DNA of 64,000 bases from Oscillospiraceae bacterium CM. GTDB lineage: Bacteria > Bacillota > Clostridia > Oscillospirales > Oscillospiraceae. Positions 19,720-30,566 of this stretch are shown here, piece by piece; position 1 is the stretch's first letter, and every line of letters begins with the position of its first letter. The stretch is from positions 1,982,501-2,046,500 of the forward strand of contig CP072107.1 in the NCBI GenBank assembly GCA_022870705.1, read 5' to 3'. The translations under genes were made by a program, and so were the position numbers. Below the pieces are notes generated by a model. It was given only the letters and a program-made list of their open reading frames with translations, did no database searches and was not told the DNA's origin.

Positions 19720-21075
19720 TTGCAACAGTCCGTTGAAGTCACCGTAAGTGATATCCTTTTTTTTCTGAAAAGGCGGTTTGCACTCATCATCGTACTGACG
19801 CTGTCCGTCGGCGTTTTAAGCTTTGCCGCGTCAAAATTCATTCTTTCACCAACGTACGAGTCTACTGCAACGTTGTTTGTTTCGCAGGCCGAGGAAAATA
19901 AGTCAGTTGTCGGCTCCGCCGTTAAATTTGGCGATACGTTTGCTTTTATTCTGAAAAATCAGCCGTTGCTGGAAAACGCGATTGCAGCGCTGCACCTGAA
20001 TATGAGCGTCAAATCGCTTGAAAACCGTGTTCATATCAGTGAGATCGGTTCAACTGAAATTTTCACGCTTTCTGTTCGCGACAGCGATGAAAAAAGAGCT
20101 GCCGCCATTATTGACGCTATTTTGACTTTAGCACCTGAGGAGATCAGCAAAACACTTAAAGTCGATTCAGCGCAGATCGTCATTCTGTCGAAAGGGACGG
20201 TGTATGTAGGCCCTAACATCCTAAATAATTCTTTTACCGGCTTGTTTGTCGGTTTCGCCGCATCCTGCATCGTCGTTTTTGTTCTTGAGCTTTTAAACAA
20301 TAAGTTTATGACGAGCGAGGATATCAGCAGCAAGCTTTCCTGCCGTGTGATCGCCGTCGTGCCGACATATCAACCGGCAAAAGCCAGCTCCCAAAAGATA
20401 ACCATCGATGAAAACAGTATTTTGCCTGAGCGGGATTGGGCGCATCTGACTGAATCGTACTATGCCATGCGGGCAAACTTGAAACATGCCGCCCAACAGC
20501 ACCCGGCTAAAAAGATTATCATTGCCAGCGCGATAAGCGGCGAGGGACGGACGTCCGTTGCCGTCAACCTGGCTATTTCTCTCGGTCGGAGCGGTAAAAG
20601 CGTACTTCTCATTGATGCCGATTTTAGAAATCCGGGTCTTGGCGTGCTGTTTTCGCCGTCATACCATAACGGATGCGGCCTGACAGAAGTTCTCTTGAAA
20701 AACGCGCCGTTATCGGATTGTCTTGTCCAGTATGGTGCATCCGGCATCACCATTTTGCCTTCCGGCATCGCACCGGCCAGTCCGAACGATTTACTGGAGT
20801 CGGATGCGATGCAATCGCTTCTGGAGACCTTGTCAAATAATTATGACCACATTATCCTGGACACGCCGCCGATGGCCGTTTTCTCCGACACCCTTTCTCT
20901 TTTGCCCGCGGTTGACAGCGTTCTCTTCGTCGTCAGGCAAAATGCAACGCCGTTCGAAGCCGCCGAATTTTCAATGAACAGTATAAAGGCACAAGACGCC
21001 CATGTTCTCGGTTGTGTCTTAAACGGTTTTGATTCCGGTAAAACAAATAAACTGTACGCCTATATGAAGCATTAA
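19720..21075 (+). CDS. Fused Wzz chain-length regulator/BY-type tyrosine kinase
   Basis: TTG at 19720 lies seven bases after GGGGAGG; 451 residues. A Wzz domain with two membrane helices (about 18-40 and 172-195) is joined to a CpsD/CapB-type kinase domain with Walker A' LLIDADFRNP and Walker B HIILDTPP. The P-loop at about 268-274 reads SGEGRTS, with Arg in place of the nucleotide-binding Lys. The C-terminal tyrosine cluster is reduced to two Tyr. It would control polymer length in the polysaccharide locus; kinase activity is doubtful because of the Lys-to-Arg change. Confidence 0.88.
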   Translation: MQQSVEVTVSDILFFLKRRFALIIVLTLSVGVLSFAASKFILSPTYESTATLFVSQAEENKSVVGSAVKFGDTFAFILKNQPLLENAIAALHLNMSVKSLENRVHISEIGSTEIFTLSVRDSDEKRAAAIIDAILTLAPEEISKTLKVDSAQIVILSKGTVYVGPNILNNSFTGLFVGFAASCIVVFVLELLNNKFMTSEDISSKLSCRVIAVVPTYQPAKASSQKITIDENSILPERDWAHLTESYYAMRANLKHAAQQHPAKKIIIASAISGEGRTSVAVNLAISLGRSGKSVLLIDADFRNPGLGVLFSPSYHNGCGLTEVLLKNAPLSDCLVQYGASGITILPSGIAPASPNDLLESDAMQSLLETLSNNYDHIILDTPPMAVFSDTLSLLPAVDSVLFVVRQNATPFEAAEFSMNSIKAQDAHVLGCVLNGFDSGKTNKLYAYMKH

Positions 21076-21098
21076 CGGCGCGTGTTCTCAATGTGCTG

Positions 21099-21127
21099 AG
21101 CCTGACGGTTAATCGTCAGGCTTCTTT
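21099..21127 (+). terminator. Terminator between the Wzz/kinase gene and the convergent operon
   Basis: AGCCTGACG, loop GTTAAT, CGTCAGGCT and then TCTTTC. It lies after the kinase gene and touches the end of the minus-strand flippase-FrhB gene. Confidence 0.75.
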
Positions 21128-23877
21128 CACTCTCTGCCGAGTATTTTTTTGGCGAAGTTGACGAGATGCAGCGCTTTTAAAAGCGCATAGGCACTGTTTT
21201 CGATGCGCTTTTTTAAGCAGAACCGCCATCCGGCAGGCGTATATTTTTTGAGGACATATGAGAGGCCGCGTGTGAAAAACTCTTCCCAGAAGGTATCTGC
21301 TTTCGAGCTTCGTTCGCTGGGGCTTTTTAGCTGCGGCTGACGCGGCAAGCATTCCGACAAATTGCTCTTTTCAAAGTCGATTCGATCACCAACCGCTTCG
21401 AACAACGTTTTGCCTTTTTCTGTTTGGACGAGGACAAGCGAAACGCCGCCGCCGTCGTCAAATTCCGGCTTACATGTCTCTATTCCCCAGAAGTCACCAA
21501 TCGTCATGTCGGAAGGCCGTTTTGTTCCGGCGAAGCGGCATCGGTGGCACGATTCCCGCAGGATCAATCCATCGAGGTATAGCCGGAAAAACACGTCGGT
21601 CACAAAGGATTTCTGATATGTGTCCTGCGTGCCGTGCAATGTGCTGAAGAAATGAATTTTCATTCCAATCCCACCATTGGATATCTCCTTGCTCCGAAAA
21701 GCGGCAGACATCACGCGCCCCTTAAATTTTTTCATGAGGAAGGCCAGATATGCCTGCCAGATAACCGGGCTCGTCACACCGTGACAGACGAGATCGCAAA
21801 TGAAAAGTCTTTCAGTTCTTACCGCATGCTGTGTGAGAAATCGCATCAGCGCCGAGGTCTGACACGGCGTCCCTGTAAAGAGGACAGTTCTGCCCTGATG
21901 TAAGTCTTTTTCAACCTCCCAATAGACGTTGAGAAGCGTGCTCTGCACATATTTAGAGCCTTTAAAGGCGTCACGCACCTGTTTTGTCACGGCCCGCCGG
22001 TGGCATACGTTGAAATTTTCGTCAAAGCACGCACCGTAGACGCTCCCTCCCTTTTCCAACACCACGTCGGACAGCGCCGTGAACATGCCGCCCGATGTGC
22101 TCGAGCGGCGGACGGCGCTATCCCGATGCTTGACAGCGTAGACCGTTGGTTCTGTAAGCCTTCCGCTGAGTTCTCTTTCCGCGGCAGCATCCAGCGGGCA
22201 AGTTCTGACACAAGCCCGGCAGCCGACGCAGAGTGCCGTGCTGACCTCGGGATAGAGAAAGCCTTTTTCATCCGGCCGGAGCGTGACGGCGTGATGCGGG
22301 CAAACGGCTTGGCATGCCCCGCAGCCGCAGCAGTTTTCCTTTCCCTGTGGTTTTGTTGTCATTTTCGTCGCTCCTTTTAAGTTTCTAATTCTTTTGAGGA
22401 TATGGCGGTGTTCCTCCCGCTCAATAAACAGTGCCGTTATAGCGATGACCAGGGCGGCATACAGCGCCGTCAGGCACGTCATAAGCACCCAGCTGCTCAA
22501 ATGCGCCGGTTCTAATTTGATCACGGTAAACGGCAAAATGATAAGCCCGACGCGCACAAAGACCAGCAAAATGCGCCTTGCCGTTTTTTTGACAGGTAGC
22601 TTCGTCACGTGGCGCGGGATGAAAAACATTAAATCTAAATCCCTGTATATATTGGAGACCACCGAGCCTAGGATGATCCCGGCAAGACCGAAAACAGGTG
22701 CGAGTGCCGCGCCGACTGTCACGGCGATCATCCCCTGTGCCACCGTTTGATACCGCGTTTCCCGATACAGCCCCGCTGATAAGACAAGCATGCCCTGCGG
22801 CGTTTTAATGTTAAAAAGCAGCCCATTTAAAACCATGAGAAATCCGACAAGCGGCATATTGTAGTGCGCATCCGAGATGCCGGCTGTGTACAACTGAACA
22901 AAGGGCATGATCATCACAAATGTCACGCCGTACATCAAAGAAATAATGGCGTAATAAGCCATTTCAAATTCCCGATAAGCTTTTTGAAGCGTTGGCAATT
23001 CTCCGCGTGCAATCACGTCACCGAACGACGCGGAAAGCCCGCTGATAAAAATGCCGACGAGACCGCCGATTCCCGTCAGTACCATGTTATACACCGAGAA
23101 GACACTGACAAGCTTGAGGTCTTTTAGAAGAAGCGTCAATAAAATCACGGGTGCCCCCGTGTGAACCATTCCGAGAATCTGCAGAAACATGGCATCCCAC
23201 CGCTTGTTTAGCGATTTATTATCGGGCGGGACCCTGTCATTAAGAAATCGATACCGTCGTCTGCAATAGCGCCATAAAATGGCCGATCGGAGAAATAGGG
23301 CGCACAGACAGACGGCGCGCAGCCCGACGATTGGAACGCGCCAAAAAGCGAGGGTAGCAATGACCACCGTACTGAGCACAATCTCCGCCGTCGTCGCGGC
23401 GGCGATGACATATGTCTTCTGATCGGCTGTCAGCAGCACACGGTATTTGGCCAGCGTAAAAAATTCCATCGCCCCGTTTGTTCCCAAAATTAAAACAAGC
23501 AGGCCAATCATGGAAAAGGGCAGTGTCTCCGAGCGGATATAAATGGGATACAAAATCGCAAGCCCGGCCGTCAGGGCCAGAAACAAGTACCCGCTCTGCG
23601 TGTAGAATTTTTTTGCCGCGGCGACAATACCGTTGACAGCTTGATGGTTTTGCTCGGCCAGCGGTCTATACAGGGCGTAAACGGCCGCCCCCGCAAGCCC
23701 CGCCTCTGCCAGATTGAAATAGGCGATAAACTGGGAGACAGAGGTAACGAGCCCGTTAATTTCCGAGCCGTAGGCGGTGAGCAGGACGCGTGGCGTTATG
23801 AGACCGGCCAGAAGGGTGACAAGCTGCATCAGCGCCGTTGCGGCCGTGTTGTAAAAAAAGGCTCTTGTTCTGCTCAT
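21127..23877 (-). CDS. Fused Wzx-like flippase and FrhB/FdhB-type iron-sulfur oxidoreductase
   Basis: ATG at 23877 overlaps the stop of the upstream GT2 gene as TGATG; one uninterrupted 916-codon frame follows. Residues 1-about 500 are a polytopic MATE/MOP-type polysaccharide flippase. From about residue 506 the sequence is a complete second protein: two [4Fe-4S] clusters (CCGCGACQAVCP and CVGCRACVRTCP) and a coenzyme F420 hydrogenase/dehydrogenase beta-subunit domain. Such proteins are frequent in polysaccharide loci beside pyruvyl transferases. A ribosome site and ATG at 22362 suggest that the second part is also made alone. It is the last gene of the minus-strand operon. Confidence 0.88.
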   Translation of the reverse strand: MSRTRAFFYNTAATALMQLVTLLAGLITPRVLLTAYGSEINGLVTSVSQFIAYFNLAEAGLAGAAVYALYRPLAEQNHQAVNGIVAAAKKFYTQSGYLFLALTAGLAILYPIYIRSETLPFSMIGLLVLILGTNGAMEFFTLAKYRVLLTADQKTYVIAAATTAEIVLSTVVIATLAFWRVPIVGLRAVCLCALFLRSAILWRYCRRRYRFLNDRVPPDNKSLNKRWDAMFLQILGMVHTGAPVILLTLLLKDLKLVSVFSVYNMVLTGIGGLVGIFISGLSASFGDVIARGELPTLQKAYREFEMAYYAIISLMYGVTFVMIMPFVQLYTAGISDAHYNMPLVGFLMVLNGLLFNIKTPQGMLVLSAGLYRETRYQTVAQGMIAVTVGAALAPVFGLAGIILGSVVSNIYRDLDLMFFIPRHVTKLPVKKTARRILLVFVRVGLIILPFTVIKLEPAHLSSWVLMTCLTALYAALVIAITALFIEREEHRHILKRIRNLKGATKMTTKPQGKENCCGCGACQAVCPHHAVTLRPDEKGFLYPEVSTALCVGCRACVRTCPLDAAAERELSGRLTEPTVYAVKHRDSAVRRSSTSGGMFTALSDVVLEKGGSVYGACFDENFNVCHRRAVTKQVRDAFKGSKYVQSTLLNVYWEVEKDLHQGRTVLFTGTPCQTSALMRFLTQHAVRTERLFICDLVCHGVTSPVIWQAYLAFLMKKFKGRVMSAAFRSKEISNGGIGMKIHFFSTLHGTQDTYQKSFVTDVFFRLYLDGLILRESCHRCRFAGTKRPSDMTIGDFWGIETCKPEFDDGGGVSLVLVQTEKGKTLFEAVGDRIDFEKSNLSECLPRQPQLKSPSERSSKADTFWEEFFTRGLSYVLKKYTPAGWRFCLKKRIENSAYALLKALHLVNFAKKILGRE
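22360..22376 (-). promoter_or_regulatory. Internal ribosome site and start at the flippase-FrhB junction
   Basis: In the minus strand AAGGAG (22376-22371) is followed after 8 bases by ATG at 22362, in frame with both halves. It would give a free 411-residue FrhB-like protein. The +1 frame has TAA just before the AAGGAG, which looks like the lost stop of an ancestral separate flippase gene. Confidence 0.7.
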
Positions 23878-24947
23878 CAATGCTCATTCATCCGCTTCTC
23901 GGCCAGCCGATGATCGGGTAACCGCGCCCCAAACCGGTGCCAGGCATTAGTCAGATATAACGAAAGCGCCAACAGAACGGTTCTCCGCCGTGCAATTAAA
24001 AAATTCAGCCATTTGTCTGTGTGGTTTTTCAGCTGTGCATAGGGGAGCGACGCCATAAAAACCGCGTCGGAATAATATGCTTTTAATTCGTTCAAAACCG
24101 CATGCGACAGCGGGTTGCGTCTGTCGGCGCTGCTCAGCAGGCAGACAAGATACGCACGGTAACAGTTTTCTTCGGTATGAAGAAGGCGGCACCCAGAATA
24201 GGCGTCATATGCTTTGAACAGCATTTTGTATTCACTGTAAAACAGGTGTGTCAGGCGGTGCAGTTCGCGTTGCTTTTTACGGCTCAGCGACATGTTACCC
24301 AATTCATGAAAATAATTGTACAGGCATTGATTGACAACGCAGATACTTGCTGTATGCCGATAAAACCTAAAATTGAAAATGGAGTCCTCGTGCAGGCTGA
24401 TATCTTCCCGAAAGCGGACGCCGCTCGCCTGCAGGGCCTCTCGCCTGTACATTTTATTCCAAACGCCGCCGATAAACGGTGAAAAACCCTGCAAGACATC
24501 AAATTGCCGGACATAGGCCGCCGTCTCGAAGCGCCCTGCAATCGGCAGCTTGATGGGGATGGTTTTCAGTTCCCCGCCGGGCTGTTCATAAACGTTGTTA
24601 AATGCCGAAACGGCCATATCGCAGCCGCTTTCTTCAATAGCCTCAACGAGCGTCCGGCAGCAATCCGGCTCAAGATAATCGTCGGCATCGACAAATTGAA
24701 TATACTGCCCCACGGCGTTGTCAAGCCCGGCGTTGCGCGCGGCGGAGACACCCCCGTTATCTCTGTGAATAACGCGCACTCTGTGATCTGCTTTTTCATA
24801 TCGCCTGCAAATATCAAAAGAGGCGTCTTTCGAACCGTCGTCAACGAGCAGGATTTCAATATCTCGATACGTTTGGCGCAGGATGGCATTCAGGCATCGA
24901 TCCAAATACTTTTCACCGTTGTAAACAGGCACGATGATTGATATCAC
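23877..24947 (-). CDS. Glycosyltransferase family 2
   Basis: GTG at 24947 overlaps the upstream stop as GTGA; 356 residues. The GT-A fold has IIVPVYNGEKYL at the N-terminus, ILLVDDGSKD, and the metal-binding VDADDYLEPD near residue 87. The C-terminal 150 residues are basic and aromatic-rich without clear membrane helices. It adds one sugar to the lipid-linked repeat at the cytoplasmic face; donor and acceptor are unknown. Confidence 0.93.
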   Translation of the reverse strand: MISIIVPVYNGEKYLDRCLNAILRQTYRDIEILLVDDGSKDASFDICRRYEKADHRVRVIHRDNGGVSAARNAGLDNAVGQYIQFVDADDYLEPDCCRTLVEAIEESGCDMAVSAFNNVYEQPGGELKTIPIKLPIAGRFETAAYVRQFDVLQGFSPFIGGVWNKMYRREALQASGVRFREDISLHEDSIFNFRFYRHTASICVVNQCLYNYFHELGNMSLSRKKQRELHRLTHLFYSEYKMLFKAYDAYSGCRLLHTEENCYRAYLVCLLSSADRRNPLSHAVLNELKAYYSDAVFMASLPYAQLKNHTDKWLNFLIARRRTVLLALSLYLTNAWHRFGARLPDHRLAEKRMNEH

Positions 24948-26047
24948 CTCGTCACCTGCCCGGTTGGCGTGTTATCAAGGGATGCACGGATATACGCCAG
25001 CGAATTTTTTCTCAGCTCATTGAGGCGAATGCTTGGGATCGTAAAATCGATATCCTCGATGGCCATCTCGGAATCAAACGAAGAGACGATCCTGCCGTCA
25101 AGCCTGAGATCTTTTAAAAGATCCACCATTCGGGAGCCTTTTGTCCGATGAGGTACCGTATAGAAATTTTTTTTGAATAAAACGGCAAAGGCTGTGCCGT
25201 GGAAGGAATCGGTGACGACATAGTCCGACCCGTCAATCAGCCCGAGGAAGTCCGACGGTCCGGCGCAGGGTATAACCCGATGGCGACGGCGCGCGCGAAA
25301 CGACAAGCCGCCGGAGGCAATTTCATACACCGTAAGGCCTTTTCTCGCGGCGATTTCAGCGGCAAGACGATACGTTTCGTCGTACCCATTGAGGGCATAT
25401 AAAAGGAGATATTTTTTCAACCGGCTCTTTTTAGCCACGCATCGCCACTCTTCCCGCGTGAGGAGCAGTGTCGGGTCAAGGACAACGGATACAGGCCGGG
25501 GATAGACAAAGCCGATCGCCTTCTGCGCCGAGCGCTCCCGGACGGCAACAACGTCCACGTTTTTTAAAAGCGCGCTATACAGAGCCAGCTCCCGTGCCTC
25601 AAGGATATCCTTGCCGTAGCTTGCTGCGTAAGCGATGACGCGGCAGCCCTTCTTTTTTTTAAAATCACCGAAATATGTTTTGTCAACGCCGTCTGTAATC
25701 CCGAAGCTCCAAATTTGATCACTGCCGAGAAAGACGTAGTCACAGTCCAGCGTGAGCGCCTCCCGGACGCGGTATACGCCCGGCGTCAGGCACAGATACT
25801 TTTTTAAAAAGGATCCGAACTTCTTGTTTCGAACAAATGTGAAGGGGAAATTAAGCAGGCAGGAAAGAAACCAGCGCATTGTTTTGAAATAGAAATAGTG
25901 ATATTGCCGCAGCAGATGCGGAGGGACATAGTTTAATATCTCCGCTGTATCGACGAACTTCTCAAGGTTTTGCTGCATGGCGTAAGCCTGCAGCATTGCC
26001 CCGTAATTCGGGACGCAGTGAAACGTCACCACGACCGCTTTTTTCAC
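24944..26047 (-). CDS. Polysaccharide pyruvyl transferase family protein
   Basis: GTG at 26047 overlaps the upstream stop by 4 bases and has GGGAGG seven bases upstream; 367 residues. The GT-B-like fold with VTFHCVPNYGAMLQAYAMQ at the start, GSDQIWS near residue 110 and TDSFHGTAFAVL near residue 270 is typical of the CsaB/WcaK family, which transfers pyruvate from PEP to sugar hydroxyls. Its pairing with an FrhB-type protein is common in polysaccharide loci. Confidence 0.92.
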   Translation of the reverse strand: MKKAVVVTFHCVPNYGAMLQAYAMQQNLEKFVDTAEILNYVPPHLLRQYHYFYFKTMRWFLSCLLNFPFTFVRNKKFGSFLKKYLCLTPGVYRVREALTLDCDYVFLGSDQIWSFGITDGVDKTYFGDFKKKKGCRVIAYAASYGKDILEARELALYSALLKNVDVVAVRERSAQKAIGFVYPRPVSVVLDPTLLLTREEWRCVAKKSRLKKYLLLYALNGYDETYRLAAEIAARKGLTVYEIASGGLSFRARRRHRVIPCAGPSDFLGLIDGSDYVVTDSFHGTAFAVLFKKNFYTVPHRTKGSRMVDLLKDLRLDGRIVSSFDSEMAIEDIDFTIPSIRLNELRKNSLAYIRASLDNTPTGQVTR

Positions 26048-27045
26048 CGCCATCCCTCCCTGAGCCGAAACAGAAGCGTTAAAAGCTTCGGGCACACTAG
26101 GAACACGATGTAACGGAGTATGAGGCGCACATGGATGGGCATTTGGATAATATCGCGTTTTGCGCCAATCAGTTTCGACGTTATTTCGTGCAACAGCTCT
26201 TTTTCTTCTGGCAGGTAAACGCTTGCTTCGGCAAAAGACGATATCAGCGTCTGATAATAATAGTTTTTTGATTTTTGAAGGAGGATTTCTTGCCCCTCCT
26301 TTTCAAAAAACGCGTTGCGTTCCTCAAAGGCGTCCAGAATGTCCCGGATATTTTTTGGCAAAACGGGTGATGTCATGATGCTGCCGGGCCTGCCCTGCCG
26401 GTAATTATATTTCGGCCGTGCCGTTCGTACGAAAACGCGCGCGTCATAAAGGGCGCGATACATAAAAAATGCATCCTCATGTAACCGGTTTTTCTGAAAC
26501 CGCAGCGTTTCAAAAATGGATTTTTTATAAAGCTTGTTACAGATGCTCGCACTGATTTTAACGCGTCTGTCCAGAAACGCCGCCGTTGCCGCGCGCTGAT
26601 CAAGGACGCAAATACCACCTCTCGCCCCATCTTTGCGTCGTTTCCCGTTCGGATATACGTACCGGATGCCGCATTCGGCTATATCGGCGTTATGTTGGCT
26701 CATGAGATCAAAAAGTGTTGTATACATGTCTTTTTCAAGCCAATCATCCGCGTCGACAAACGCGACAAGGTCGCCGCGCGATGATGCCAGACCGGCGTTG
26801 CGCGCGTCGCTCAGCCCGCCGTTTGTTTTGTGGATAACCCGAATTCGGGTGTCCGCTTTGGCAAATATGTCGCAAAGCCGCGGGCAACCATCTGTTGACC
26901 CGTCGTCAACCAAAATAATGTCCAAATTGTCGTAATCCTGACGCCGGATGCTTTCAACGCAGGCTGTCAGATACGCCTCCACATTGTATACCGGCACGAT
27001 AATGCTCAAAAGCGGCTTTCCGATTTCGGCTGAAATATTACGCAT
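26044..27045 (-). CDS. Glycosyltransferase family 2
   Basis: ATG at 27045 follows AGGAGG by six bases; 333 residues. IIVPVYNVEAYL, ILVDDGSTDG and VDADDWLEKD mark a standard GT2 domain (about 1-220), with a hydrophobic C-terminal segment near 305-325 that may dip into the membrane. Similar in layout to the GT2 at 23877-24947 but clearly diverged from it. Confidence 0.93.
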   Translation of the reverse strand: MRNISAEIGKPLLSIIVPVYNVEAYLTACVESIRRQDYDNLDIILVDDGSTDGCPRLCDIFAKADTRIRVIHKTNGGLSDARNAGLASSRGDLVAFVDADDWLEKDMYTTLFDLMSQHNADIAECGIRYVYPNGKRRKDGARGGICVLDQRAATAAFLDRRVKISASICNKLYKKSIFETLRFQKNRLHEDAFFMYRALYDARVFVRTARPKYNYRQGRPGSIMTSPVLPKNIRDILDAFEERNAFFEKEGQEILLQKSKNYYYQTLISSFAEASVYLPEEKELLHEITSKLIGAKRDIIQMPIHVRLILRYIVFLVCPKLLTLLFRLREGWR

Positions 27046-28276
27046 TGAGAACCTCCTGTCTGCCTTGCGGCATGGTCATAGGCCGGCTGCCGCACGACAG
27101 CGCGACAAGAAGGGCGAGTATCGCCGCAAGCTTGACTTCGCCCAGCAAAATATTGATGGTGAACCCGATCCAAATCGGTATCATAAACAAATAACCGGCG
27201 GGTGGCGTTGTTTTTCTTTTTCTGAAAAACATCACCATAAATATGACATAGGAGATTATCCCATATGCCAGTATCCAGAACAGGTGCCCATTATGTGGGC
27301 TGATCTTCGCGTCGTTTAAAAACGTGTCGCCCCCCTGTCCGATCAGCAGATATTGAAAGAAATTAGCCTGCTGTAAGATATTTTTCCAGATGGATAAGCG
27401 GGAGCTGGCCGAATTGCCCGCTATCCGGGAAAATGACTCCTGCGCGACGGTACCACCCAGATAGTCCGGTATTCTGGGGATAAGAAAGTACAGAATAACG
27501 GCCAGCAAGACAAACAAAACGACGTTCGTAAGACGCCACCGAAAGGTCACGCGCCCTGTTATGAAGCGCCAAACTGAATACACCATGTATAGTCCAACTG
27601 AAATCACGGTGCTCAGCAGCGCGCCGCTGCTCATGCAGGATATAACGATAAGCGTTAGCGCGCCAAGCAGGAGTGCTTTTGTAAAAAGGCTCGTTTTCTC
27701 GTGACAAAGTATAAACAAAACAACGGCATTTGCCATATAGCCGATGTTGTTTTCATCCATCCAAAAAAATCCGAAGCGATAGCCCGTAAAATCTGTCGTC
27801 ATCCAAGCTGTCGCCATGCGTGGATTCCAGATAAATTTTATATCCTGATAGAGGGATTTATCCACGTTGTAAACAACAGCAAACGCTGTGACAAATAGAA
27901 TAAATCCGATGAGAACGCCTTTGACTCGAAGAGGATACCTCTCGGCGTAATAAGCAAACATGAAGTAATAAATAAACATCATAAGTAGCTCGACGAGCAG
28001 CGTTGTGTTGTCATAAATGTGCGCCGGGTTGAGGAAAAACGACAGCACGGTGCTCACGCCCATTAAAAACAAGAGCAGGACAAATAGCCGCCATTCCCGC
28101 CGCTGCGAAACCGCCGCATATCTTTTTATAAACCAATATAGGACAACCGGCATGGAATAGGGTATCGATATAAACCAAAAATACGGCATGAAAAAGAGGT
28201 CGATAAGACAAAACCAGAAAAAACACCGGTCAATAAATGCTTCATGATCTCGATTCGCCAACACCATTTCTTCCAT
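27038..28276 (-). CDS. Wzy/O-antigen ligase-like polymerase
   Basis: 412 residues with about ten predicted membrane helices and a large loop near residues 270-320 (SRIAGNSASSRLSIWKNIL), the pattern of Wzy polymerases and WaaL-type ligases. No other polymerase candidate occurs in the locus, so it is the probable polymerase of flipped repeats. The start overlaps the upstream double glycosyltransferase gene by 35 bases. Confidence 0.82.
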   Translation of the reverse strand: MEEMVLANRDHEAFIDRCFFWFCLIDLFFMPYFWFISIPYSMPVVLYWFIKRYAAVSQRREWRLFVLLLFLMGVSTVLSFFLNPAHIYDNTTLLVELLMMFIYYFMFAYYAERYPLRVKGVLIGFILFVTAFAVVYNVDKSLYQDIKFIWNPRMATAWMTTDFTGYRFGFFWMDENNIGYMANAVVLFILCHEKTSLFTKALLLGALTLIVISCMSSGALLSTVISVGLYMVYSVWRFITGRVTFRWRLTNVVLFVLLAVILYFLIPRIPDYLGGTVAQESFSRIAGNSASSRLSIWKNILQQANFFQYLLIGQGGDTFLNDAKISPHNGHLFWILAYGIISYVIFMVMFFRKRKTTPPAGYLFMIPIWIGFTINILLGEVKLAAILALLVALSCGSRPMTMPQGRQEVLNA

Positions 28277-30566
28277 TGCTGATTTCCTTTAAAAATTCGT
28301 TGATTTTCTCTGCCTGAACGGCCCACGTTTTACTGCTGCAAATAAACTTTTTTGCTTTCTCTGCTCTTTCGGCTAAAGCGGCCTCATCTAAACCGGCAAG
28401 GTGATTGATTGCCTCGGCAATCTCGGGCGCTTTTCCCAAACCTTGAATGAAAAAGAGCTTGTCGTTATACGCCTCATGAAAGCCGTTTAAGCGTGCTGTG
28501 AGTACCGGCGTACCACTTTGCATGTATTCCAGGATTTTTGACGGAAACGTAACCTGTGCAATCGGGTCGTCAACAGGCCGGGGATTAATTAGAAGCCAGG
28601 CGTTTTTCTGGACGGCGCGTACTTCGGCGTTCTTTAGGCTGCCGCCATAGCACACATTCGGCATCATGCTCGCCCTTTTTTGAACAGCGGACTCAAGCTG
28701 TCCCTTACCATATATATGAAGGCTCACATCGTGGTGTTCAACAAGCGCCATTGCGTCCATCAGGGCAGAGATACCATTATAGGCCGTGAGGCTGCCGGAA
28801 TACACGATTCTTCTTTGTCCGGTTGTTTTATTTGCGGGATCCCCGTCGTCGCTGATATGATCCACGCCGCCTTCCATGACGATGAAGCAGGCATTGGGAT
28901 TGTATTGCTCGGCGGCGTGCCGGTTCAGGACGATCAGGTTCGGGCAGGCGGCAATAATCTTCTTCGTCAAGGCATTAAAGATCCCCAACAAAAGCCTGCC
29001 GGGAAACGGCCTGTCTGTCCGGTCGTCGAAGGGCAGGTCGGCGAGGAGTGCGGCGACATGCCAGTGTTTTTTCATTGACAGCAGCGGCAGGCCCGTCTGC
29101 GGATAGAGATTGTAGGACAGGACGATGACATTACCGGCCCGGCACGCGATTTGTTTTGCCCGGCGGCATAGCGCTAAAGCCTGCCAGAGCTGCTTGATGA
29201 GCGGGATATTGAGGAATGGAACAAATTCCGCCGTCATGCATGTATCATCGAGCACCGCTTCACGGTGCCGCGCGGAAAACAGCGTTCTTTCCTTCGGATA
29301 GGCCCCAGTGGTTTGCAGTGCCAGAACCTTAATATCAAAATCTCTTAACGCCGAGAGGTGCTTTAAAAGATTTAGCTGCATGGTATTACCCGCCACAGAC
29401 CCGCCCGAGCGCACCTCGGCCCCGTCTTTTCCGGCAAGGGCGCCCAGAAAAATAAGCGTTGTCCGGCAGCGCTCTCTAAACTTCTCAAGATGCTCGGCAG
29501 CCATCGTCTCAATAGTGTAGCCCCGGATGCGCTGCAAGCATTTTTCGGCCATGCGGTGCCGTGATCCGTTATGATTTAACAAGCACAAAAGCCGCTCTGC
29601 CAGCACTTTTTCATCACCAGCCGGTATGATATAGCCGTTTTCGCCGTTTTTAATAAGCGCAGCACCCGCGCCGCAGGCGTCTGTCGTAATGACGGGCAGG
29701 CCGCGCGCCATCGCCTCGCTGACAACAAGGCCCCAGACGTCTGCTCGTGTCGGCAGGACAAACACATCGGCCATGTCAAAATAACAATTAATTTTCTCTT
29801 TGCCCATAAAATCAAGAAAATGAACGTTACGGTATTCGTTTGCCGCCATAATACGCCTGTATTCCGCCGTCGGCTGTCCGCCGATCAGATAGATGCCGGT
29901 ATCCATGTCTAAATACCGGCAGGCGCCGAGCAGACAGTCAAAGCCCTTTCCGGGAACAAACCGCCCAACGCTTACAACCATTTTCGCCTCCGGGATTCCA
30001 TGAGCGCGGCGGAGCGCGCCTTTTTCAGCGTCGGATGGCGGGGCGCTGCGGATGTCCCTTTCATAAAGGGATGTGAAATGGTAGCGGCAAAGCGCGTCCT
30101 CACGGGCACCGTTTGACAGGAAGTACGCATCATGGCTGTCACCGGTGCTGAAACAAACCGCAGCGCCTCCAAAAATCCGCCTTTTGACAAAGGCGCGGAG
30201 CCAGTCGCCCTTTTTGTAAAACCCGCCGTCACCCTCAATCATATAAGAGCGCTTCATTAATTTTAAATAGGCGACGGCGAGTATGCCTGTCGGCGTCAGC
30301 GGATTGCTGATAACGACGCCATCATAGTCCCTTCTTCTCAGATACCGGATAACGCCTGGGCAAAATGCCATATCCGGTCTGATGGATACGCCCTTTAAAA
30401 AAACGCCGGTGAAGGTCTTAAAACAGCCGAAAACCCAGCGCCGGTCCCGCTCTCCGGACGTTTTCTTTTCAAAAAGCACGGTCAGCGCGCACCCGCTCCC
30501 AAGCGTGTTGAAAAAATCAACCCTGTACGGCGCGGGGATATTCGTCAGCCACAGAATGTTATCCAT
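28242..30566 (-). CDS. Double GT4-family glycosyltransferase
   Basis: 774 residues comprising two full GT-B enzymes. The first (about 1-370) has VSVGRFVPGKGFDCLL and the E-x7-E region WGLVVSEAMARGLPVI; the second (about 371-765) has RIVYSGSLTAYNGI and FPSKILEYMQSGTPVL. No stop, ribosome site or start codon separates them, so this looks like a true fusion that may add two successive sugars. It overlaps the GT4 gene before it by 8 bases. Confidence 0.88.
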   Translation of the reverse strand: MDNILWLTNIPAPYRVDFFNTLGSGCALTVLFEKKTSGERDRRWVFGCFKTFTGVFLKGVSIRPDMAFCPGVIRYLRRRDYDGVVISNPLTPTGILAVAYLKLMKRSYMIEGDGGFYKKGDWLRAFVKRRIFGGAAVCFSTGDSHDAYFLSNGAREDALCRYHFTSLYERDIRSAPPSDAEKGALRRAHGIPEAKMVVSVGRFVPGKGFDCLLGACRYLDMDTGIYLIGGQPTAEYRRIMAANEYRNVHFLDFMGKEKINCYFDMADVFVLPTRADVWGLVVSEAMARGLPVITTDACGAGAALIKNGENGYIIPAGDEKVLAERLLCLLNHNGSRHRMAEKCLQRIRGYTIETMAAEHLEKFRERCRTTLIFLGALAGKDGAEVRSGGSVAGNTMQLNLLKHLSALRDFDIKVLALQTTGAYPKERTLFSARHREAVLDDTCMTAEFVPFLNIPLIKQLWQALALCRRAKQIACRAGNVIVLSYNLYPQTGLPLLSMKKHWHVAALLADLPFDDRTDRPFPGRLLLGIFNALTKKIIAACPNLIVLNRHAAEQYNPNACFIVMEGGVDHISDDGDPANKTTGQRRIVYSGSLTAYNGISALMDAMALVEHHDVSLHIYGKGQLESAVQKRASMMPNVCYGGSLKNAEVRAVQKNAWLLINPRPVDDPIAQVTFPSKILEYMQSGTPVLTARLNGFHEAYNDKLFFIQGLGKAPEIAEAINHLAGLDEAALAERAEKAKKFICSSKTWAVQAEKINEFLKEISNGRNGVGESRS

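Follow-up and report, generated by a model that had tools for sequence, protein, structure and literature searches.

Two kinds of described protein come closest to the gene considered here, which lies in a 64,000-nucleotide stretch of Oscillospiraceae bacterium CM (contig CP072107.1, positions 1,982,501 to 2,046,500; the whole stretch is called the window below). The first are the flippases WzxE (9g9n) and MurJ (7waw), and the second are the FrhB/FdhB proteins with an N-terminal ferredoxin (8riu_B, 8rja_E and HCAR, 5dqr), whose partners are a hydrogenase, CO dehydrogenase or formylmethanofuran dehydrogenase. The PF04432 family includes F420-independent members such as HCAR. In the window, a single frame of 916 codons joins a flippase half to a ferredoxin-FrhB half. 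The flippase half has the fold common to WzxE and MurJ, but at an identity of 11-13%, and it bears a C-terminal oxidoreductase; the FrhB half shares the FrhB_FdhB_C domain and the two [4Fe-4S] motifs of its family, but it stands in a polysaccharide operon. Probably two adjacent, translationally coupled genes of a surface-polysaccharide operon, one for a Wzx/MurJ-type flippase and one for a ferredoxin-FrhB protein, have recently and naturally become one gene here by read-through, and the redox enzyme may act on the cargo of the flippase.

The frame is open on the minus strand from the ATG at 23877 to the stop at 21127-21129, and the plus strand is not open at the same stretch. The frame is real, and the flippase and the ferredoxin-FrhB oxidoreductase in it are both complete; an earlier note on this DNA had described a flippase joined to a complete ferredoxin/FrhB protein, and the open frame, the fold and the PF04432 and Fer4_7 matches bear it out. 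The flippase half belongs to a divergent family: no Pfam family matched it at E ≤ 0.001, leaving residues 1-489 unmatched, no flippase model stood among the NCBIfam matches listed (25 of 45), and a sequence search of solved structures found nothing for it at E ≤ 10. The fusion was modelled with AlphaFold on a 51-row alignment, giving a mean predicted local distance difference test score (pLDDT) of 92.4. By our own count, the modelled flippase half has 14 helices of transmembrane length, two of them broken, followed by a C-terminal helix at residues 487-503, and it superimposes on WzxE 9g9n (Z 27.9, 403 residues, root-mean-square deviation (rmsd) 3.5) and on MurJ 7waw (Z 27.9, 475 residues, rmsd 3.6). 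With a helix number within the range of 12-14 and this fold, the modelled half is a MOP-type flippase of the MurJ/WzxE kind, and flipping itself is predicted. Its nearest homologues by identity are L187 (58%), L082 (49%) and L083 (47%), and Arg 496 falls in an invariant column among 14 close homologues. Past column 487, 39 homologous flippases have 12-24 further residues (median 17), and the window has 18 up to the FrhB methionine; since this tail length fits the homologues, the flippase is not truncated, and its natural end passes into that of FrhB with no added linker. The same genome has a second, distant flippase of this family outside the window (G000:C1:1441352-1442848, minus strand).

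The FrhB half matches PF04432 with 74.5 bits (cut-off 23.3), and its N-terminal part is a dicluster ferredoxin (Fer4_7, 36.1 bits). The cluster cysteines are residues 516/519/522/526 and 550/553/556/560, all eight of which align with those of relatives, and this half keeps every column that is invariant across 28 FrhB sequences. By fold, this half matches 8riu_B (Z 26.3, 311 residues, rmsd 3.5), and a sequence search of solved structures returned ferredoxin and FrhB chains. It is also the sole FrhB_C match in the whole genome. With the eight cysteines and the invariant columns kept in the only match of the genome, the enzyme is probably still used. The possibility that it forms part of a hydrogenase FrhABG was rejected, as no FrhA or FrhG lies alongside and the six scanned neighbours (19720-30566) are all glycan genes.

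The two halves meet with very little between them. Residues 503-508 at the joint are the only run of at least three residues with pLDDT under 50, and the FrhB methionine falls exactly at the natural end of the flippase family, the same place at which FrhB starts in unfused pairs. The earlier note had pointed to AAGGAG before an in-frame ATG at 22362; this Shine-Dalgarno motif is indeed present at 22376-22371, and codon 506 ranks first among the 24 in-frame ATGs, and third among the 64 ATG, GTG and TTG codons, when they are compared by anti-Shine-Dalgarno duplex energy. The energy at the first codon of the fusion is -3.3 kcal/mol, compared with -8.1 kcal/mol at the internal ATG, and such a weak site at the first codon fits a start that would be coupled to the preceding gene.

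How the two genes stand in relatives was examined in 56 loci, collected by searching public genomes for patterns derived from the window, L082 and L083, a set that leans to the close subfamily; removal of duplicates by the last 300 nucleotides of the flippase left 51. Neighbour counts omit copies of the window (L001, L031, L081 and L126) and matches above E 1e-8. A gene was taken as adjacent at -60 to +100 nucleotides for FrhB, and for the pyruvyltransferase at -120 to +100 (upstream) or +200 nucleotides (downstream); FrhB starts were chosen by a heuristic rule (Shine-Dalgarno plus ATG), so that single gaps may be off. In this close subfamily, FrhB is the next gene downstream of the flippase in 36 of 51 loci, a pyruvyltransferase-family gene is the next one upstream in 31, and 23 have both neighbours. 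Over all sets, including five found via FrhB, there are 43 flippase-FrhB pairs that are unfused by definition; 12 of them overlap by 4 nucleotides, and 31 have gaps between -17 and +5 nucleotides. Since the pair is so close, one small change is enough to make one frame of it, and since the two genes are commonly neighbours elsewhere, the fusion becomes much less mysterious.

The cassette of pyruvyltransferase, flippase and FrhB is spread widely. The three genes occur together in Elusimicrobia (L161, L178), Myxococcales (L162, L196) and Desulfobacteraceae (L179), and two Paenibacillus loci (L144, L150) have the pyruvyltransferase and the flippase without FrhB. A plasmid search gave 14 records, of which two cover at least 80% of the query, both with separate genes. 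According to their annotation, these two, pRUMAL02 of Ruminococcus albus 7 and pNP95 of Pseudobutyrivibrio xylanivorans, have a pyruvyltransferase, a flippase and an F420 hydrogenase beta subunit in the order of the window, the pNP95 flippase being annotated as a 'hypothetical protein'. Unlike the fused pair of the window, the R. albus pair is unfused with a 4-nucleotide overlap, and the P. xylanivorans pair is unfused with a gap of 23 nucleotides as annotated. In R. albus pRUMAL02 (L197, 4696-5939), two annotated genes share what is a single pyruvyltransferase elsewhere in the cassette, and FrhB has no ferredoxin part of its own but is followed by a ferredoxin gene. The window itself holds all three families, with one glycosyltransferase between the pyruvyltransferase gene and the flippase.

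The fusion is rare. Besides that of the window, 117 distinct flippases include one that is fused, L068, from genome G378 of another family of the order. This protein has 832 residues and no ferredoxin part; a site like a Shine-Dalgarno sequence and an ATG stand at its FrhB start, which ranks fourth of 55 start-type codons. The order of flippase and FrhB is that of the window, and a pyruvyltransferase gene lies just upstream. Because its halves are only 23% (flippase) and 27% (FrhB) identical to those of the window, L068 is probably an independent event. The searches of the order, class and phylum, each scoring at most three candidates per genome, gave the same picture: in the order at E ≤ 1e-30, two of 38 flippase rows lie in a fused frame (its own and G378); in the class at E ≤ 1e-40, the frames of all other rows are no longer than 650 residues; and in the phylum at E ≤ 1e-100, the flippase occurs in 3 of 397 other genomes, none of them in a long frame. 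When the entire fusion served as query, a first scan of public genome contigs gave no relative, and viral contigs likewise gave none. The earlier note had called the architecture unusual, and two fusions across all these searches agree with that.

FrhB joins other partners as well. Among 111 distinct FrhB frames (the edge-cut window copy L031 left out), a set biased towards long frames since 20 stretches that contributed to it were picked mainly for frame length, 21 contain a pyruvyltransferase and two a flippase. One FrhB frame is fused to DUF1919, and a glycosyltransferase part is present in two. The pyruvyltransferase-FrhB fusions comprise 16 frames of 725-811 residues and five larger ones of up to 1992 residues; their FrhB is of the same family as that of the window, but the partner is soluble instead of a membrane flippase. 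Some composite frames of glycan loci are very long: L064 combines pyruvyltransferase, FrhB, hexapeptide and SDR domains in one frame of 1992 residues, L065 is a frame of 1641 residues with pyruvyltransferase and FrhB, and L062 and L063 (1076 and 1112 residues) join glycosyltransferase, FrhB and pyruvyltransferase. In five further frames of 524-585 residues (L069, L070, L071, L072 and L075), FrhB_C lies at about residues 200-550, behind an N-terminal part of about 200 residues that has no Pfam match in L069 and L070, the two that were scanned.

We propose the following course of events for the read-through fusion. Ribosomes would make the full fusion, with the FrhB half held on a short tether from the C-terminus of the flippase. 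MOP flippases have their N-terminus in the cytosol; with an even number of helices, the FrhB half would thus be cytosolic as well. The cytosol is also where ferredoxin and lipid-linked sugars are located. At the same time, initiation at codon 506 may give some free FrhB, so that two products would be expected. The oxidoreductase and the pyruvyltransferase-family enzyme may act on the lipid-linked sugar, which the flippase would then export, as the neighbourhood and the fusions suggest. Going by gene order and by the fusions, all three proteins of the cassette would contribute to one and the same exported unit. Tethering would bring no new function and would be either tolerated or of mild benefit. 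Several observations weigh against this explanation. None of the 51 flippases of the closest subfamily set is fused to FrhB, and over all sets the 43 unfused pairs stand against two fused ones. In the same subfamily, 15 of 51 flippases have no FrhB downstream, and among more distant members of the family an FrhB gene directly follows the flippase in 0 of 29 (order-seeded set) and 2 of 29 (class-seeded set); it is gene order that suggests a link of the oxidoreductase to the flippase cargo. A search of the genus found the flippase of the window in 0 of 5 other genomes at E ≤ 1e-60, and no close relative of this exact locus was found.

The strongest alternative is a neutral or decaying fusion, in which read-through is tolerated and either free FrhB started at codon 506 does the enzymatic work or the cell no longer needs FrhB. 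The retained Shine-Dalgarno motif and ATG agree with it, as do the other flippases of the family that have no FrhB neighbour. The eight ferredoxin cysteines and the invariant FrhB columns are, however, kept in the only FrhB_C match of the genome; FrhB is therefore, or was until recently, under selection, and we regard this alternative as unlikely, though it deserves to be kept in mind.

Concerning the way in which the stop was lost, the earlier note had supposed two formerly separate genes, and this is probable, since the unfused relatives form a coupled pair. It had further taken a TAA in the +1 frame as the sign of a frameshift. The TAA is present at 22379-22377, 15-17 nucleotides before the internal ATG, which speaks for a frameshift, but the +2 frame also stops nearby, and in the last 12 codons of the flippase a +1-frame stop occurs in 40 of the 43 unfused pairs (a +2-frame stop in 25 of 43), so the reading of the TAA as a frameshift sign is not supported. 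In a control of 493 running 12-codon stretches of the window's flippase, 47% have a +1 stop and 21% a +2 stop. The frame as read is homologous to about ten codons before the joint, and its tail resembles L164, L166 and L169; because Arg 496 and this family-like tail are kept in the read frame, few codons are left for an insertion or deletion. An in-frame change of the stop would be as economical, and the loss by a frameshift seems to us rather doubtful. The comparison with related loci that the earlier note had suggested confirms that separate genes are usual, but an off-frame stop proved to be commonplace among them.

A third alternative is that the fusion is established and selected, with the tether holding FrhB so that only the modified lipid-linked sugar is exported, and with no free FrhB made. 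In its favour are the second, apparently independent fusion L068 and the FrhB frames fused to a pyruvyltransferase in the set enriched for long frames, together with the even helix count of the model, which puts the C-terminus on the same side as the N-terminus, in the cytosol. On the other side, there is essentially no linker, the strong Shine-Dalgarno motif and ATG are kept, as expected of a young fusion, and only two fusions were seen; we hold this alternative to be improbable. Least credible of all is a sequencing or assembly error, by which one miscalled base would mask the stop between two genes that are not joined. One base would be enough for this, the FrhB Shine-Dalgarno motif and ATG are intact, and the closest subfamily has no fused member. 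On the other side, the genome is one contig with an estimated completeness of 100%, none of its 40 ABC-transporter domain matches falls in a frame with an internal stop (a proxy to which many insertions and deletions would be invisible), homopolymers at the joint reach four A at most, and the same pair is fused in G378; as far as these proxies go, nothing points to an error.

The cassette deserves follow-up more than the fusion itself, and it suggests that the oxidoreductase acts on the flippase cargo. In this flippase subfamily an oxidoreductase and a pyruvyltransferase-like enzyme are frequent neighbours, with fusions among the three, which would make reduction one of the steps by which the exported unit is assembled; the cassette thus turns an annotation curiosity into a testable pathway, and the fusion offers a ready-made natural case in which to look for a physical coupling of modification to flipping. 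One chemistry can be put forward, although we think it quite unlikely as a specific proposal: a membrane-bound module of pyruvyltransferase-family enzyme, FrhB and dedicated flippase might build and export a lactyl-ether unit, and the fusion would be this module as one chain. The transferase would add an enolpyruvyl group from phosphoenolpyruvate to a lipid-linked sugar, ferredoxin-FrhB would reduce it to a lactyl (1-carboxyethyl) ether, and the flippase would export the finished unit only; the chemistry would be that by which MurA and MurB make muramic acid. Hints for this, and no more than hints, come from the cassette, from the fusions between its genes and from four capsule types of Klebsiella described below.

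The literature offers little on the point. No role is known to us for FrhB-type oxidoreductases encoded in such loci. The Klebsiella capsules K22, K37 and K66 contain 1-carboxyethyl-glucuronic acid. In the main text of a Klebsiella cps survey, the capsules K8, K22, K37 and K66 have a pyruvyltransferase gene and no pyruvate, and the cps set includes, besides two genes for nitroreductases, a single 'coenzyme F420 hydrogenase' gene, in types not named there (PMC4616057). Apart from this passing count, a search of open-access literature found no paper on a role of FrhB-type oxidoreductases in polysaccharide loci. A search by terms of a review on pyruvate substitution found neither F420 nor hydrogenase in it (PMC6801904), and PMC10629545 speaks of pyruvate ketals.

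The operon around the fusion (Table 1) is of the Wzy-dependent polysaccharide type, with glycosyltransferases, a pyruvyltransferase and a Wzz/BY-kinase gene nearby, the polymerase being represented by a Wzy_C match below threshold only. It is tightly packed, because the start of the fusion overlaps the TGA of the upstream glycosyltransferase. The true start of the pyruvyltransferase-family gene is probably a later ATG, judged by inspection.

Table 1. Features of the fused gene and its neighbourhood, in positions of the window
Feature	Position	Strand	Basis
Flippase half, residues 1-505	22363..23877	-	Predicted model and fold matches
Ferredoxin-FrhB half, residues 506-916 plus stop	21127..22362	-	PF04432 and Fer4_7
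Shine-Dalgarno AAGGAG retained within the frame	22371..22376	-	8 nucleotides before in-frame ATG
Internal in-frame ATG, probable start of free FrhB protein	22360..22362	-	Anti-Shine-Dalgarno energy; position as in unfused pairs
Joint, residues 503-508, short flexible tether	22354..22371	-	Predicted model, pLDDT
TGATG, upstream glycosyltransferase stop overlapping fusion start	23875..23879	-	Sequence
Glycosyltransferase family 2 gene, upstream	23877..24947	-	PF00535 141.5 bits
Polysaccharide pyruvyltransferase-family gene, third cassette member	24944..26095	-	PF04230 130.8 bits
Glycosyltransferase family 2 gene	26044..27045	-	PF00535 132.7 bits
Possible Wzy polymerase	27038..28276	-	PF04932 23.7 bits, under cut-off 31.7
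Wzz-like chain length determinant joined to BY-kinase, opposite strand, facing the operon	19720..21075	+	TIGR01007 135.2 bits (cut-off 108.05), PF02706 37 bits

The operon contains a second fusion of another kind, at 28242-30566 of the window on the minus strand, where two GT4-type glycosyltransferases form one frame of 774 residues. No ATG, GTG or TTG stands directly at the joint of this double frame.

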